A DNA stretch of 64,000 nt, taken from Citrifermentans bremense. Its GTDB lineage: Bacteria > Desulfobacterota > Desulfuromonadia > Geobacterales > Geobacteraceae. Both the position numbers and the translations under genes were made by a program. Positions 43,307 through 50,547 of this stretch are shown piece after piece (position 1 is the first letter of the stretch; the number at the start of each line of letters is the position of its first letter). Location: positions 3,512,001 to 3,576,000 of the forward strand of contig NZ_AP023213.1 of NCBI RefSeq assembly GCF_014218275.1. The letters are read 5' to 3'. The notes beneath the pieces were generated by a model that saw nothing but the letters and a program-made list of their open reading frames with translations, did no database searches and was not told the DNA's origin.

Positions 43307-43780
43307 TTAGAAGAAGCGGGCGCCGGCCTTAAGGTCGGTAACGGTGATGCTGACGTTCGCCGCGTCGATTTTCGCCGGGAGATGCGAGGGGTTGCAGCCG
43401 CCGCTGCTGGCAGCTCCGATGCGGGCCGTAGCGAACTTCATGCCGCAGTTCTTGCAGACCATCTTGTCTCCCTGCTGCTCGTACCCTTTCTTTTCCCGGA
43501 AGCAGACGTCGCAGGCGTCGAAGGCTGTGTGCAGCACCCCGTCGCTGCCCTTGACCAAGAAGAAGTTGATCTCCTTCCCGCCGTCTGTGAATTTGTAGTA
43601 GTGGGCCTTGCCGTCGCTTACCTTGGAGACGGGGATGACGACGCTGCCGTTTACCGGCTTCACCTTGTCGTACTTCCCCATCCCGGGGATGGTGAAGGCG
43701 AAGGCGACGGTCGCCGCGACGACGAGCGACAGGGACACCAGCAAGAGGTACTTCAGGCCTTTTCTGCAGTGACAAACCAT
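43307..43780 (-). CDS. Exported DUF2318-type protein
   Basis: 157 residues from ATG 43780, AAGGAG upstream. Starts with a signal anchor (YLLLVSLSLVVAATVAFAF) then the DUF2318 core: VSDGKAHYYKFTDGGKEINFFLVKGSDG, DACDVCFREKKGY, MVCKNCGMKFA and GCNPSHLP. DUF2318 occurs as the C-terminal part of membrane proteins linked to iron transport and has paired CXXC motifs. Here it is stand-alone, close behind an HMA-domain protein on the same strand. Metal or Fe-S handling outside the membrane is likely. Confidence 0.75.
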   Translation of the reverse strand: MVCHCRKGLKYLLLVSLSLVVAATVAFAFTIPGMGKYDKVKPVNGSVVIPVSKVSDGKAHYYKFTDGGKEINFFLVKGSDGVLHTAFDACDVCFREKKGYEQQGDKMVCKNCGMKFATARIGAASSGGCNPSHLPAKIDAANVSITVTDLKAGARFF

Positions 43781-43863
43781 TAGTTGCTCCTTTTCACCCG
43801 GGTCTGCCGGGGCATTCGTGCTGAAACTTGCAGCAGAGGTTGATCTAGACTTCATTCCGGCTC

Positions 43864-44283
43864 TTATTGGCGGCTGTTGCAACCGCGCGGGCCGCAGCAC
43901 CCCCCAGGGGCGGACTGGGCGCCGAGCTCCCGTCCAGCAAGTGACTTGAACTGTTGGGGCGTAAGCACCTGTGCCACCTCGGAGTTGAACCCGGTGGCGG
44001 CAACGGTTTTTGCCAGCCGCTCAGGCGCCACCTGCTTGGAATCGTACCCGGCAATGACCACCCCCCCCGCCAGATCGACCTCGGTGGCGGCCACTCCGCG
44101 CTCGGATTGCAACGCCTTGGTTATCTTGCCGACACAACTGCTGCAGGTCATCCCGGAGGTGCGCAGTACCACCACCTGGTCGGCCGTCGCTCCGACCCGC
44201 ACGTGGAAGGCCGCGACGACGAGGATGACCACCACGGCGACAACCAGGCAAGAGTTGACGATTTTGAACCTTATGTTTTTCAT
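43864..44283 (-). CDS. Exported heavy-metal-associated (HMA) domain protein
   Basis: 139 residues from ATG 44283, GGAG upstream. One N-terminal membrane/signal segment, then an HMA domain with GMTCSSCVGKI (CXXC metal site) and the VTE..AGGVVIAGYD..QV strand pattern. The C-terminus adds GGCCGPRGC, a second cysteine cluster. MerP-like periplasmic metal-binding protein; specific metal unknown. 83 bases upstream of the DUF2318 gene, same strand; probable unit. Confidence 0.75.
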   Translation of the reverse strand: MKNIRFKIVNSCLVVAVVVILVVAAFHVRVGATADQVVVLRTSGMTCSSCVGKITKALQSERGVAATEVDLAGGVVIAGYDSKQVAPERLAKTVAATGFNSEVAQVLTPQQFKSLAGRELGAQSAPGGCCGPRGCNSRQ

Positions 44284-44487
44284 GCGCTTGCTCCATTCGC
44301 CAAGGCGCCGGAAAAGGCGCCTGCCACAGTGAACGGGCAATGCAGGTACAAGTAGCGTGCCACCGTTGATGCCGGCTGCAACTACTGGAGATCATTGGCG
44401 GCGCCGTCCCGAGCGCCGACAGCGGCCGGTGGGACCCTGTAGAATATCCCGCAAGCGTCGTAGGATTTTCCACAATACCCACTACCC

Positions 44488-45782: not shown

Positions 45783-46005
45783 CTTGTCCTCCTTCAACTC
45801 CCCGTTACTGCTGGATCTTCCGCCTGAACGCCGGCGGAAGACACTATACCTCAGAAGCCGGCGATCTTCCCAATGAAAAATCGGCTTGACTTTTCCCCCC
45901 GCCCCAAGAGAATCAATTAGTATTTTCCAATCAAACCCAAAAGGGCCGCGGATGCAGCAAAAGCCTGAGACTGCAAGCTGCAGGGCTCATTTTCGGGGAG
46001 GCTTC

Positions 46006-46578
46006 ATGCCAGCGGGGGTGCCTATGAACAGACACGGATGCACGACGGCGATCCTTTGCGCCTTGCTGTTTCTCTCCAGCAGCGGCCCGGCGCGGGGGTC
46101 CTTCTACACCTATTACCCCTACCAGATGTACGAGGAGTACCACCGGCGCTACACCGAGCCGCGCCAGCCGCAGCCGCAGCAAAACGGCCGCAGTCAGCCA
46201 CAGGGGGTAAAACCTGCACAGCCGGTGAAGCCCGCGGTGAAGCCTCCCCCGGAATTCCTGTTTCCGGCGCGGCTCGGGGTCGGGGTCGCGGTGGGGGTGC
46301 CGGAGGACCTTTTCTACCTCCCCCAGGGGTACTACCTCTGGCGTGAGGGGAGCTGGTACCGCTCCAGCTCCTACGACGGCCCCTGGGGCGCGGTGCGCAA
46401 GGGGAAGGTTCCCCCGCAGCTGCTGAAATACGACCTGGCGACGATGAGGGAGCTCAGGAACCAGGAGTACCGGCGCTACTGGGAAGAGCGGGAGAAGTAC
46501 CGGGGTCAGCGGTTCCGGCCGGCCAGAAAGCCGACGCGACTCCCCAAGGAGCCCCCGCAGGATAAGCGGCCTAACTAG
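46006..46578 (+). CDS. Exported proline-rich protein with YXXWREGSWY motif
   Basis: 190 residues from ATG 46006, where GGGAGG is five bases upstream. Signal peptide ends ARG-SF. Tyr/Gln/Pro-rich segment (YHRRYTEPRQPQPQQNGRSQ) then a short globular part: LGVGVAVGVPEDLFYLPQGYYLWREGSWYRSSSYDGPWGAV, known from secreted DUF6515-like/PXPV proteins. The basic tail ends KPTRLPKEPPQDKRPN. Its stop codon overlaps the proposed SECIS hairpin of the convergent arsS gene. Function unknown. Confidence 0.65.
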   Translation: MPAGVPMNRHGCTTAILCALLFLSSSGPARGSFYTYYPYQMYEEYHRRYTEPRQPQPQQNGRSQPQGVKPAQPVKPAVKPPPEFLFPARLGVGVAVGVPEDLFYLPQGYYLWREGSWYRSSSYDGPWGAVRKGKVPPQLLKYDLATMRELRNQEYRRYWEEREKYRGQRFRPARKPTRLPKEPPQDKRPN

Positions 46579-46598
46579 GCCACGATGCTCCCGCCTCA
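46566..46598 (-). promoter_or_regulatory. Candidate bacterial SECIS element for ArsS selenocysteine
   Basis: On the minus strand the UGA at 46598-46596 is followed 15 bases later by GTGGCC-TAGTTA-GGCCGC, a 6-bp stem (one G-U pair) with a 6-nt loop. The distance from UGA to loop (about 20 nt) fits bacterial SECIS geometry. The stem lies partly in the convergent gene's 3' end. SelB binding is untested. Confidence 0.5.
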
Positions 46599-47558
46599 GG
46601 TGAAGCCGGCGCCTACCGTGCAGGCGAAACAATGGTCTGCGGTGGGGATCGCTGTCCCGGGCGGGGGGAGCTCGGCAAGCGCCGAGATGTGGGTCTCCCC
46701 CCCACCGTGCCAGACCCCCTGCGCCAGGTGGAAGTCGCAGTCGTAGAGCCTGCCGCGCCAGTCGACGGAGAGCTGGTAGCGGCACATGAGCCCGGGGACG
46801 CTGCAGGGGTTGAAGCCGTCGGAGAGCTTGGCGAGGTACGCATCGAGGTTGCCGGAGCGCTCCAGGAAACTCCGGAAACGCCCCAGCGGCACGTTGGCGA
46901 AGGTGTAAAGGGAGTGGAAGCTGATGCCGTGCCTGCGGAAGAGATCGCTTCTGAACTTCTGCTCGGCCTGCTGCTGCGGTGGGGGGAGAAAGGCCCCTGA
47001 CGGGTTGGAGACCAGGTCGAGCCTGAGCGGGCTCTCCGGCATCCCGTACCCCAGCGCGTTCAGCTTCTTCAGTACCTCGATGCTCCGCCCCCAGACCCCC
47101 TCCCCGCGCTGGGCCTCGGTCTGGGAGGCGTTGGTTGCCGGCAGGGAAGCCACCAGGGCCACCCCCAGCTCCCGGTAGAGCTCGCAAAGAGCCGCGCCCC
47201 TTGCGCCATCGAGCGCCACGAGGTTGGTGCGCACCATGAGCCTGCCGGTGAGAGGGGCGAGCGCGCGCACCAACCGCTCCAGGTCCGGGACCAGCTCGGG
47301 GGCGCCCCCGGTAAGATCGATGCTCTCGAACCTAAAGCGGCGGGCGCAGTCGATCACCGCCTCCATGGTCTCAAGGTCCATCACCTCGTCCCGCTGCGGC
47401 CCCGCCTCCAGGTGGCAGTGGCGGCAGCTAAGCCCGCAGGCAAGCCCGACGTTCACCTGAAGCACCCGGGTCTCCTCCCGGGTCAGTTGCAGGCCGTGCC
47501 TTTCCAGCGCCTCGTGAAACGCTCTTCCTCCCATTTGTCCGTTTGCAGCCATCGGCAT
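46575..47558 (-). CDS. arsS: ArsS-type radical SAM protein, probable selenoprotein
   Basis: About 327 residues from ATG 47558 (AAGGGG six bases upstream) to TAG 46575, reading TGA at 46596-46598 as selenocysteine. Radical SAM motif CGLSCRHC binds the 4Fe-4S cluster. LTGGAPEL follows. The C-terminal cysteine-rich part has NPCSVPGLMC, YDCDFHLAQG and CFACTVGAGFT, after which the frame continues U-GGSIVA and then stops. In this family (TIGR04167, arsenosugar biosynthesis rSAM (seleno)protein) the end GAG..[CU]GG has Cys or Sec, as I recall. If TGA were a true stop the protein would lack that last residue. Upstream, 10 bases away, is the AhpD-like partner of the same pathway. Role: radical step in arsenosugar-type arsenic metabolism. 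Confidence 0.8.
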
Positions 47559-47568
47559 CCCCATCCCC

Positions 47569-47901
47569 TTACAGCGAGAGCTTCTCGGCGATCTTGCGCA
47601 TCTGCACCGCATGCACCAGGGAGGCTCCACCGCGGATGGCGGTCGCCACGTGGACTGCCTCGGTCATCTCGCCCAGGTGTGATCCCTTCTCCAGGCAGGC
47701 CCGGGTGTAGGCGTCTATGCAGTAGGGACACTGGACGGTGTGGGCTACGGCAAGGGCGATGAGCGCCTTCTCCCGCTCGGTCAGCTCCCCTTCGGCGAAG
47801 ACCTCGTTGTAGTAGGCAAAGAACTTCCCGGCAAGCTCAGGCGCGTCCTTTGCCACCTCGGCGAAGCTCCCGAGGTCCTTGGGGTCGTAGTAGGTTTCCA
47901 T
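47569..47901 (-). CDS. AhpD/CMD-like arsenosugar-associated peroxidase-like protein
   Basis: 110 residues from ATG 47901, with AAGGAG upstream. Carboxymuconolactone-decarboxylase fold with redox motif VQCPYCIDAYTRACLEKG (CXXC plus distal His-like context) and EMTEAVHVATAIRGGASLVHAVQM. Small CMD proteins next to ArsS form a known pair (TIGR04169, from memory). The cysteines are probably used for peroxide or disulphide chemistry. No CX2U is visible here. It is 10 bases before arsS, so co-translated. Confidence 0.8.
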   Translation of the reverse strand: METYYDPKDLGSFAEVAKDAPELAGKFFAYYNEVFAEGELTEREKALIALAVAHTVQCPYCIDAYTRACLEKGSHLGEMTEAVHVATAIRGGASLVHAVQMRKIAEKLSL

Positions 47902-48202
47902 GCTCTCTCCTTTTATTTCGCGTCGCTTGCGCCGGCTCCGGAAACTCCCGGGGGCAGGCCGCGAAATGATACCCAAGTTCCGGCTACCGGTAAAGCACAA
48001 TCCCTCGGGTGAGCGCCGCGTCTGTTCATTAGATTGTGAGCTCTTCAGCGAGCCCCTTCCCTGCGCCTGGGGCGAATTCAAGGATCCGGTGCGAAGGTGA
48101 GGCGGCGACAAAGGCCATTTTCATGAGCCTGTGGCACTTGAAATGGCAGGGGCAGTCATTATACTTGAGCCGAACCAGAAAAGGGCAACCGCGGGAGGGT
48201 GC
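47902..48202. other. Divergent intergenic region with promoter
   Basis: 301 bases between the AhpD-like gene and the Rieske gene. It contains the promoter at 48138-48165. No gene is supported; an in-frame extension of the Rieske ORF from 48131 lacks a ribosome-binding site. Confidence 0.5.
48138..48165 (+). promoter_or_regulatory. Sigma-70 promoter for Rieske/cytochrome b operon
   Basis: TTGAAA, 16 bases, TATACT, 38 bases before the Rieske start codon. Confidence 0.55.
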
Positions 48203-48622
48203 ATGGATAGTGAGGGCAGGAGGAAGTTTTTAGGGGTGTGTCTGGCCGGGACAGCGGCCGCTGCAGCAGTTGCCGCGGGCTACCCGGTCTTTCGTTATCT
48301 GGCTCCCAGGTCCGGGGCGACGGGGCTGCAGAAGCTGGTGATCTCGGCCGCCGACCTCCATGAAGGGGAGGCGAAGTTCTTCGAGTACGGCGGCTCTTCC
48401 GCGGTCCTGATCAAGACCAAGGGTGGGGAGATGGTCGCCCTTTCCGCGGTCTGCACCCACCTCGGCTGCATCGTGCAGTGGGTGAAGGAGCAGCAGCATT
48501 TTCTCTGTCCCTGCCACGGCGGCCAGTTCGCCATAGACGGCACCGTGCTGGCCGGCCCCCCTCCCAAGCCGCTGGCGAGGATCCCGGTGACGGTCACCGG
48601 CGGGAACATCACCATAGGTTAG
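48203..48622 (+). CDS. Rieske iron-sulfur protein
   Basis: 139 residues from ATG 48203 (GGGAGGG upstream). Twin-arginine-type signal anchor GRRKFLGVCLAG, then a Rieske domain with C84-T-H86-LGC89 and C102-P-C104-H105-GGQF, giving the 2Fe-2S ligands C84, H86, C102, H105 and the C89-C104 disulphide. Shorter than mitochondrial ISPs. First gene of the Rieske/cytochrome b/pentaheme unit; oxidises quinol with cytochrome b and passes electrons to the c-type subunit. Confidence 0.92.
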   Translation: MDSEGRRKFLGVCLAGTAAAAAVAAGYPVFRYLAPRSGATGLQKLVISAADLHEGEAKFFEYGGSSAVLIKTKGGEMVALSAVCTHLGCIVQWVKEQQHFLCPCHGGQFAIDGTVLAGPPPKPLARIPVTVTGGNITIG

Positions 48623-48646
48623 TCCTTTGCCGTACATGGAGGCGCA

Positions 48647-49750
48647 ATGTCCTTGCTAAAACGTCTGTACCGTTGGGTCGACCTGCGGGTCGGCATCGGC
48701 GAAATCGCGGATAAGGAGCTCACCGGCTACCTGCTCCCCCGCAACATAAACGCCTGGTATTCCCTGGGCAGCGTCCTCTTGGTCGCCTTCGCCATCCAGG
48801 TGGTTACCGGAATGCTGCTTCTGGTCTACTACGTCCCGGACGCGGAGAAGGCCTTCAAGAGCGTCAACTTCATCATGAACGAGGTCCCCTTCGGCTGGCT
48901 GATCCGGCTCTGCCACGCGGTGGGGTCGAACACCATGATCGCCGCGCTGATCCTGCACATGCTCTCCACCCTGGTGATGGGAAGCTACAAAAGCCCGCGA
49001 GAGATGAACTGGCTCAGCGGCTTCCTGCTCTTCTCTTTAGTGCAGGGGATCTCGCTGACCGGCTACCTCGCCCCCTGGAGCCAGCTCTCCTTCTGGGCCA
49101 CCACCGTCGCCACCAACTCGGTGAGCGCGCTCCCTGTGGCGGGCCCGTGGATGGTGGAATTCCTGCGCGGCGGCAAGCTAGTCGGCCCGGCGACGCTCGG
49201 GCGCTTCTTCGCGCTGCACGTGGCCTTCCTGCCGCTGGTGATCGCGATGGTTATCGTGGTGCACATCTTCCTCTTGAAGCGGACCGGCGTCTCGCCCCCC
49301 CCCTTTGGCAGAAGCGACACCGCGACGCCGTTCCAGCCCGAGCGCTACCGCTACCAGAGCCACCCGGGTGGCATCCCCTTCTTCCCGAACTACATGCTGG
49401 AGGACACCACCTCGATCTGCATCTACCTCGCCATCTTCCTCGGGGTGGTCTTCTTCTGGCCCTCGATGCCGTTCACGCCTGACGCCTTCGTCCCGGCGGA
49501 CCCGTTCAAGACGCCTGCGCACATAAAGCCCGAATGGTACTTCCTGGCCAACTACCAGACCCTGAAGATATTCCCGAACGAGCTTCTGGGGCTCACCGTG
49601 CAGGGGGCGGCCATGACCTTCCTGGCCCTACTCCCCTTCGCCGACCGCTCGCCGGAGCGGCACCCGCTGAAGCGCCCGCTTTTCCTGACGCTAGTAGTAG
49701 GCGGGATCCTGCTCTGGATCGCTCTTACCGTATGGGGGCACTTCTCATGA
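48647..49750 (+). CDS. Cytochrome b of bc-type quinol-oxidising complex
   Basis: 367 residues, GGAGG upstream. N-terminal cytochrome b6-like helices with histidines in LIRLCHAVGSN and LHMLSTLVMGS, and FALHVAFLPLVIAMVIVVHIF, which should bind two b haems. After about residue 215 comes the subunit-IV-like part with the Qo-site motif KPEWYFLANYQ. So it is a full-length fused cytochrome b, short at the C-terminus. ATGA overlap with the pentaheme gene shows coupled translation. Inner membrane. Confidence 0.9.
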   Translation: MSLLKRLYRWVDLRVGIGEIADKELTGYLLPRNINAWYSLGSVLLVAFAIQVVTGMLLLVYYVPDAEKAFKSVNFIMNEVPFGWLIRLCHAVGSNTMIAALILHMLSTLVMGSYKSPREMNWLSGFLLFSLVQGISLTGYLAPWSQLSFWATTVATNSVSALPVAGPWMVEFLRGGKLVGPATLGRFFALHVAFLPLVIAMVIVVHIFLLKRTGVSPPPFGRSDTATPFQPERYRYQSHPGGIPFFPNYMLEDTTSICIYLAIFLGVVFFWPSMPFTPDAFVPADPFKTPAHIKPEWYFLANYQTLKIFPNELLGLTVQGAAMTFLALLPFADRSPERHPLKRPLFLTLVVGGILLWIALTVWGHFS

Positions 49751-50547
49751 CCCGGACCCGAAAAACCCTGTTCATCCTGATCCCCCTGCTCCTTCTCGCC
49801 TTTTCCGCCTGGAGCGCTGAGGCGCCGCCTGAGAGCGTCTGCCTGCAGTGCCACGGCTCCCTACCGGACCGGCTGGGCGCGCCGGTGAACCTCTGGAAAA
49901 AGAGCGTGCATGCCCAAAACGGCATTTCCTGCAACAGCTGCCACGGCGGCGACCCAACCGACGCCCCCACGGCAATGACCCCCGCCAAGGGGTTCCTCGG
50001 GGCGCCAAAGGAGACCGCCATCCCCGCCTTTTGCGGCCGCTGCCATCCCGGGGTGCTTAAGGACTACCTCTCCAGCGCGCATGGCAGGGCTCTGGGCAAT
50101 GGTGGCCCTACCTGCGTCACCTGCCATGGAAACCACGAGGTGCTAAAGGCTTCGCTTGCCCTGATCAACGAAAAGAGCTGCAGCCGCTGCCACAGCTTCG
50201 AGAGGGCAAGGATCATCAGGGACGCCATGCAGCAGACCGAGGCGCACATCCAGGGGATCGAGGGGAGGCTTAGCCGGTACCAGTCCATCGGGGTGGACAC
50301 CGAGAGGCTCGGCAAGGAACTCTTCTCGGTCCGCAACAGCTTCCACTCGCTCTTCCACGAGGTGAACACGGCGCTGGTCAAGTCGGAATCGGGGAGGATC
50401 AACGCGGAGCTGTCCAAGCTGGACGGGGAACTGCAGCTCATTGACGACGAACAGGGTAGAAGGAGGGTTGTGGGGGGGATCGCGGTGGCGCTCCTGCTGG
50501 CACTGGCGCTTTTCGCCTACCTTTTAAGAAAAACCTTCCGGGACTAG
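49747..50547 (+). CDS. Pentaheme c-type cytochrome subunit of bc-type complex
   Basis: 266 residues. Signal peptide ends AWSA-EA. Five haem sites: CLQCH, CNSCH, CGRCH, CVTCH, CSRCH in the first 150 residues, then a long helical region (RDAMQQTEAHIQGIEGRLSRYQ) and a single C-terminal membrane helix (GGIAVALLLALALFAYLL) with a basic end. It takes the place of cytochrome c1 as the periplasmic acceptor, held by the tail helix. Its start overlaps the cytochrome b stop. Convergent overlap of 4 bases with the acyltransferase gene. Confidence 0.9.
   Translation: MTRTRKTLFILIPLLLLAFSAWSAEAPPESVCLQCHGSLPDRLGAPVNLWKKSVHAQNGISCNSCHGGDPTDAPTAMTPAKGFLGAPKETAIPAFCGRCHPGVLKDYLSSAHGRALGNGGPTCVTCHGNHEVLKASLALINEKSCSRCHSFERARIIRDAMQQTEAHIQGIEGRLSRYQSIGVDTERLGKELFSVRNSFHSLFHEVNTALVKSESGRINAELSKLDGELQLIDDEQGRRRVVGGIAVALLLALALFAYLLRKTFRD

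Follow-up and report, generated by a model that had tools for sequence, protein, structure and literature searches.

ArsS adenosylates arsenic, and the characterized ArsS/DDMAA synthases are reportedly built, by family, from a radical SAM core and a C-terminal Cys-rich domain. UXX-star proteins carry selenocysteine (Sec) near the C-terminus, with a SECIS element that runs past the stop codon. In the catalogue rows of PMC9312934 and PMC13188914, the TIGR04167 radical SAM domain protein (example AAR34688.1) is listed as a predicted selenoprotein, and the row in PMC13188914 gives its motif as GxxU with a reference to Zhang and Gladyshev 2005. NCBIfam names this family arsenosugar biosynthesis radical SAM (seleno)protein ArsS. 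The characterized ArsS/DDMAA synthases are those of Cheng et al. 2021, as cited in an excerpt of PMC12159101. Beyond the catalogue rows, a search of the open-licence PMC literature found no paper on the Sec form of ArsS. The gene described here is of an already known selenoprotein kind; the present analysis adds a contrast in hairpins between Sec and Cys loci, a stop codon located in the hairpin, a CTAG shared with a convergent gene and a separation from ArsM within the genus.

The window, by which we mean the whole 64,000-nt stretch of DNA that was analysed, encodes this gene on its minus strand (Table 1). The frame runs through CFACTVGAGFT to a TGA, continues as GGSIVA and ends at a TAG; the initial annotation had read this end from GAGFT onwards. 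With the TGA read as U, the product matches TIGR04167 at 367.9 bits (cut-off 300) over profile positions 2–303 of 303, and the alignment therefore reaches the last position of the profile. Pfam matches to DUF3641 (PF12345, 156.7 bits) and Radical_SAM (PF04055, 41.4 bits) accompany it, and the product has the feature set of TIGR04167 ArsS, namely a CxxxCxxC motif, a C-terminal DUF3641 and, after them, a terminal Cys/Sec. The locus thus belongs to the catalogued family by score, and its G-F-T-U fits the GxxU given in the PMC13188914 row. Nothing categorical separates it from that family; the differences are that no ArsM was found in its genome and that its tail ends seven codons after the Sec codon, inside the SECIS. 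The hairpin lies partly in the 3′ untranslated region, as in UXX-star, but the protein family is different.

Table 1. Positions of the predicted features at the ArsS locus, in window coordinates
Feature	Position	Strand	Basis or detail
Predicted ArsS-type radical SAM selenoprotein gene	46575..47558, including stop codon	-	327 aa through TGA; TIGR04167, PF12345 and PF04055 matches
TGA codon, predicted to be read as selenocysteine, residue 321	46596..46598	-	Cys/TGA column in relatives; hairpin and machinery present
Predicted true stop TAG	46575..46577	-	Top of stem and loop of hairpin
SECIS-type hairpin	46566..46583	-	5′ arm 46577-46583, loop AGUU 46573-46576, 3′ arm 46566-46572
Palindromic CTAG, overlapping stop codons of two convergent genes	46575..46578	.	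Sequence
Convergent gene	45886..46578	+	Weak WXXGXW match, 22.3 bits against 18; TTG start as predicted by ORF tool
CxxxCxxC (C41, C45, C48), probable radical SAM [4Fe-4S] cluster site	47415..47438	-	Conserved columns; ligand role from family
C259, C274, C310, C313, probable auxiliary [4Fe-4S] ligands, twitch-like domain	46620..46784	-	Invariant Cys; putative ligand role
AhpD-like partner (TIGR04169), CPYC motif, no in-frame TGA	47569..47901	-	188 bits, cut-off 120

The TGA had been taken for a probable Sec codon, placed on the C-terminal Cys/Sec position of the family. This reading is supported by the alignment column, the hairpin contrast across relatives, the decoding machinery and the conserved tail. 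The TIGR04167 match continues through the TGA, and column 321 holds Cys or TGA in all 67 relatives that were placed by alignment alone. The family is present in 50 of 58 relatives, the window's own genome included, and among the named neighbours identity is 87% for Citrifermentans bremense and 73–74% for Geomonas species. All 19 sampled genomes of the genus carry the TGA, 18 of them within the match and one (G007) in a frame-shifted copy. In that copy the TGA, tail and hairpin are kept and the ArsS frame is shifted upstream, which is either real or an assembly error. A wider sample of the phylum gave 125 matches in 121 of 395 genomes, and column 321 was Cys or TGA in 116 of 118 loci, a count of less weight than the 67 because these 116 were placed by a motif that itself requires Cys or TGA; the other two matches (L218, L221) end before the motif. 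In this sample, C-termini of the GF type (GxGF[TS][U/C]) comprise 38 Sec and 5 Cys loci and those of the GS type or other types 78 Cys and 2 Sec. In the joint alignment described below, GS-type members were almost all Cys (105/107). Downstream of the codon, G323 is invariant (83/83). The close relatives examined have either Cys or a TGA followed by the same tail, in most cases with the hairpin, and none showed a true stop followed by unconserved sequence.

The initial annotation had also noted a stem-loop 15 bases after the TGA, which corresponds to a hairpin with a 7-bp stem that starts 12 nt after the codon, or 15 if counted from its T. Its loop lies 19 nt downstream of the UGA, and the fold of 45 nt has an energy of −21.7 kcal/mol. 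The part of PMC13188914 that sets out constraints on the bacterial SECIS specifies a loop of 3–9 nt with a G in its first two bases, a stem of 4–16 bp, 16–37 nt and an MFE of −7.5 or lower, and the window hairpin satisfies all four. Its folding energy alone is unremarkable (z of −0.9 to −1.7 in three windows), and hairpins of this sort do arise elsewhere: 152 TGA codons in the window end frames of at least 80 codons, and a comparable hairpin follows six of them, the ArsS TGA included and the other five counted without a family-library search. Because the folding energy of a single sequence is too weak to decide, we took the weight given to the hairpin from comparison across relatives. An Rfam search of the whole 64-kb window returned no match at gathering scores, which we do not take as evidence on the SECIS.

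For this comparison, eight loci identical in the hairpin stretch were removed ahead of the counts. Counting pairs on a plain MAFFT alignment (A1) gave a weak result, 50 of 500 shuffles scoring at least as high in covariation, because differing loop lengths shift the arms out of register; we therefore replaced the count with a fixed-position test, applied also to Cys loci and shuffles. The test asks for a loop of 3–6 nt that starts 17–22 nt after the codon and has a G in its first two bases, closed by at least 5 bp including 3 GC, limits that were set after the first folds were seen. Such a hairpin follows 56 of 62 TGA loci (all but L092, L144, L176, L183, L186 and L187), none of the 12 Cys loci that fall inside the Sec clade, and a single one (L116) of the 103 remaining Cys loci. 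Dinucleotide shuffles passed in 5–7% of cases (212/3,100 for TGA, 32/600 for nested Cys and 279/5,150 for other Cys loci). The published constraints give a contrast in the same direction: 55 of 62 distinct TGA loci conform to them, versus 25 of 115 Cys loci, although shuffles also conform in 423 of 1,240 cases for TGA loci and 558 of 2,300 for Cys loci, which makes that test loose when used alone. The 56 hairpins contain 27 distinct 5-bp stems, with several Watson–Crick types at every pair position, a count made on related loci and on hairpins pre-selected for pairing.

These data bear on whether the TGA is simply an ordinary stop, with the protein ending at Thr320 and the downstream similarity left over from a Cys ancestor. 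A standard gene finder would make that call, and hairpins follow six of the 152 frame-ending TGA codons of the window, ArsS included. Against it, the TGA, the tail with its invariant G323 and the hairpin are kept across a clade of 74 alignment rows, the hairpin is absent from all 12 Cys members of that clade and truncation would remove a residue present in every alignment-placed relative. We regard an ordinary stop as scarcely credible, and comparison of the sequences makes Sec at codon 321 almost certain. Annotations that take the TGA as a stop lose the reactive C-terminal residue.

The position of the hairpin between two convergent genes suggests another role for it, as a transcription terminator or as an element that serves the convergent gene rather than Sec insertion. 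The last codons of that gene, KRPN-TAG, are antisense to the hairpin; as the two genes share the CTAG at their ends, the last codons of the convergent frame are the antisense of the 3′ arm. In 12 of 19 genomes of the genus, that of the window among them, a plus-strand frame with KRPN or KRPD ends at the same CTAG and hence inside the hairpin. We judge the convergent frames of the genus to be probable homologs on the basis of their C-termini and a WXXGXW match for G006. However, a terminator scan of 46400–46700 found none, and loci that lack this convergent gene still have the hairpin at an unchanged distance from the TGA, whereas loci with a Cys codon have lost it. The loop starts 18–21 nt after the codon and reads exactly AGUU or AGGU in 28 of the 56 hairpins, with most others near these, a G in the first two loop bases being part of the test. 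A terminator or convergent-gene role is accordingly very unlikely, and the sequence comparisons strongly favor the selenoprotein reading together with its hairpin.

Placement of the stop within the hairpin is reflected in stop-codon usage. Counting from Sec, 48 of 62 TGA loci have their next stop at the seventh codon (28 TAG, 20 TGA and no TAA). Seventh-codon stops at Cys loci comprise 10 TAG, 14 TGA and 7 TAA, and there a stop at the sixth codon is commoner (50 of the 111 loci in which a stop was found). A G of the SECIS loop that overlaps the stop would exclude TAA, a suggestion to be read with the loci not being independent. At 20 of 62 Sec loci (such as L188, L193 and L195), the presumed stop is also a UGA, 21 nt past the Sec UGA and within the hairpin region.

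The machinery for decoding is encoded in the window's own genome, a single contig of 4,458,493 bases, in keeping with the presence of selenocysteine genes that the Sec reading presupposes. Matches over cut-off were found for selB (395.1 bits), selA (600.6), selD (362.1) and tRNA-Sec (74.9), and ARAGORN called the tRNA as tRNA-SeC with anticodon tca. The selD gene of this genome itself contains an in-frame TGA (AAGUAAK), leaving little doubt that the organism decodes UGA. Because selA is widespread in the phylum (present in 71 of 80 genomes tested), the machinery is necessary but not discriminating. Of the 43 tested genomes that carry a GF-type Sec copy, 40 have selA and the other three are assemblies 62–82% complete; of the 25 tested whose copies are all GS-type Cys, 21 have it.

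We placed the window's copy in a quick, midpoint-rooted tree with SH-aLRT support and no bootstrap. The joint alignment has 178 rows, the window included (64 TGA and 114 Cys); it omits L223, which has an internal stop, as well as L080 and five duplicate loci. The window falls inside the 74-row set (support 100), which comprises 62 Sec and 12 Cys rows from many families, the Cys rows lying in about five separate places. The Sec/Cys label changes at least seven times on the tree, six of these changes being forced by well-supported branches, counts that include the doubtful L144 and L147. Our reading is that Sec was probably gained once and then repeatedly changed to Cys, a direction that depends on the midpoint root. 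In the ten genomes tested that have a Cys copy inside the Sec clade (those of L090 and L091 aside), selA was present throughout, so for these ten we reject the idea that losing the Sec machinery forced the change to Cys. A large Sec clade with several Cys replacements in selA-keeping genomes offers a natural test of why Sec is kept. The window's copy shares its family name with the characterized ArsS/DDMAA synthases; it lies in a mostly Sec clade separate from the GS-type members, which are almost all Cys.

Separately, L144 and L147, both GS-type ArsS genes with GST-U, form a small clade among the Cys rows. We do not claim a second independent Sec gain for them. selA was found in neither of their genomes (G217 and G350, 73% and 90% complete), and L144 is one of the loci without the fixed-position hairpin. 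Missing data, a different genetic code or a genuine stop could each account for the TGA at the Cys column of these two loci.

Four cysteines in the C-terminal part of the product, C259, C274, C310 and C313, are Cys in 83/83 and in 178/178 rows of the joint alignment. A sequence search turned up no solved ArsS structure; the top PDB hit, 8wm2 (E 2.7e-06), covers the radical SAM core only. A structure model has a mean pLDDT of 92.4, falling below 50 for residues 321–327, and its fold resembles that of twitch/SPASM enzymes (SkfB 6efn, SuiB, EpeE, anSME and BtrN). Identity to these is 14–16%, and the four best matches end at residues 306–311, before Sec321. We propose that SelB and tRNA-Sec, directed by the hairpin that contains the UAG stop, would decode UGA 321 as Sec in an enzyme with two clusters, a radical SAM cluster at C41/C45/C48 and an auxiliary cluster held by C259/C274/C310/C313. 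Sec321 itself might instead be a ligand of the auxiliary cluster, lying eight residues past C313 of the CxxC pair and being about as conserved as the other Cys. The other four invariant cysteines are enough for one [4Fe-4S] cluster, however, such that Sec321 is not needed as a ligand, and the model has no confidence at 321–327; we consider a ligand role unlikely. On the preferred reading, Sec321 sits on a tail that is disordered in the model and could serve the active site as a mobile selenolate. Its most likely task would be to hold or release a soft trivalent substrate, which analogy with ArsS suggests is an arsenical, or to recycle via C252 and the neighboring CPYC protein. That the substrate is a trivalent arsenical is, by this analogy, an even call, and the mobile-selenolate mechanism of the tail falls somewhat short of that.

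Directly upstream of ArsS lies an AhpD-like gene, and CPYC is also found upstream of the genus Sec loci examined. Among GF-type loci, 34 of 38 with Sec and 4 of 5 with Cys have a TIGR04169 match over cut-off within 1.5 kb; among GS-Cys loci, 28 of 78 do. The initial annotation had called this gene a partner in the same pathway. The neighbor is genuine and its presence conserved, but support for assigning the Sec-type clade to the arsenosugar pathway is only partial, no ArsM having been found in the genome. The best match there to ArsM (NF008823) reached 72 bits against a cut-off of 263; it is a fusion of an ArsR-type HTH with a methyltransferase domain (L128:1324-2394). By family, the arsenosugar name is no more than plausible for the window's copy.

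An alternative is that Sec-type ArsS of the genus is not an arsenic enzyme and modifies another substrate together with the AhpD-like protein. This would fit the absence of ArsM matches over cut-off from all 58 relatives. At E ≤ 1e-30, ArsM matches appear in 11 of the 58, and among the 23 with a TGA copy only in G012, where the ArsM-like gene lies 3 kb from a second, Cys-type ArsS. In the phylum sample, where only six candidates per genome were scored, ArsM over cut-off accompanied 14 of the 38 GF-Sec loci, or 12 of the 36 genomes that carry such a copy, close to the background of 109 of 395 genomes. Yet it was no commoner with GS-type Cys (23 of 76 genomes), so its absence may say little; with similar rates across types, ArsM is linked to neither in this sample. 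The Cys set is moreover common to the family, and in G055 a Cys member of the window's own clade has a MIP channel, ArsM-like genes and an AhpD-like gene as its neighbors. We hold the non-arsenic alternative to be possible but the less probable reading.

Paralogues in G012, a Sec copy beside an AhpD-like gene and a Cys copy beside an ArsM-like gene, make a functional difference directly testable. The cluster around the latter contains a lipoamide dehydrogenase, the ArsM-like gene, a MIP channel, a B12-type radical SAM gene and the Cys-type ArsS. The arsenic-looking clusters of G012 (L224) and G055 (L226) share this make-up, their ArsM-like genes scoring below cut-off, and also have an aldehyde ferredoxin oxidoreductase-like gene. 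Absence of the AhpD partner from arsenic clusters is not claimed, as it is true for G012 (best score 56) and false for G055 (468). We tentatively suggest that the Sec-type branch is functionally distinct. It would stem from one ancient Sec acquisition, normally pair with a CPYC AhpD-like protein, lack endogenous arsenic methylation and carry Sec on a mobile tail, with C252 as resting partner, in order to hold or recycle a soft substrate of the 5′-deoxyadenosyl radical; in arsenic clusters, Cys would take its place and the SECIS would be gone. This broader picture is doubtful on present evidence.

Rieske, cytochrome b and multihaem cytochrome c genes at 48131–50547 of the window diverge from the AhpD–ArsS pair. 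Rieske genes also stand beside the Sec copies of two genus members (L227 and L228), with cytochrome b and a multihaem cytochrome at L227. At 43307–44340, a gene for an FtrD-like Fe–S membrane protein lies beside an HMA (heavy-metal) domain gene with CSSC; the FtrD-like protein itself has Cys, though some of the families that it weakly matches are named as selenoproteins.
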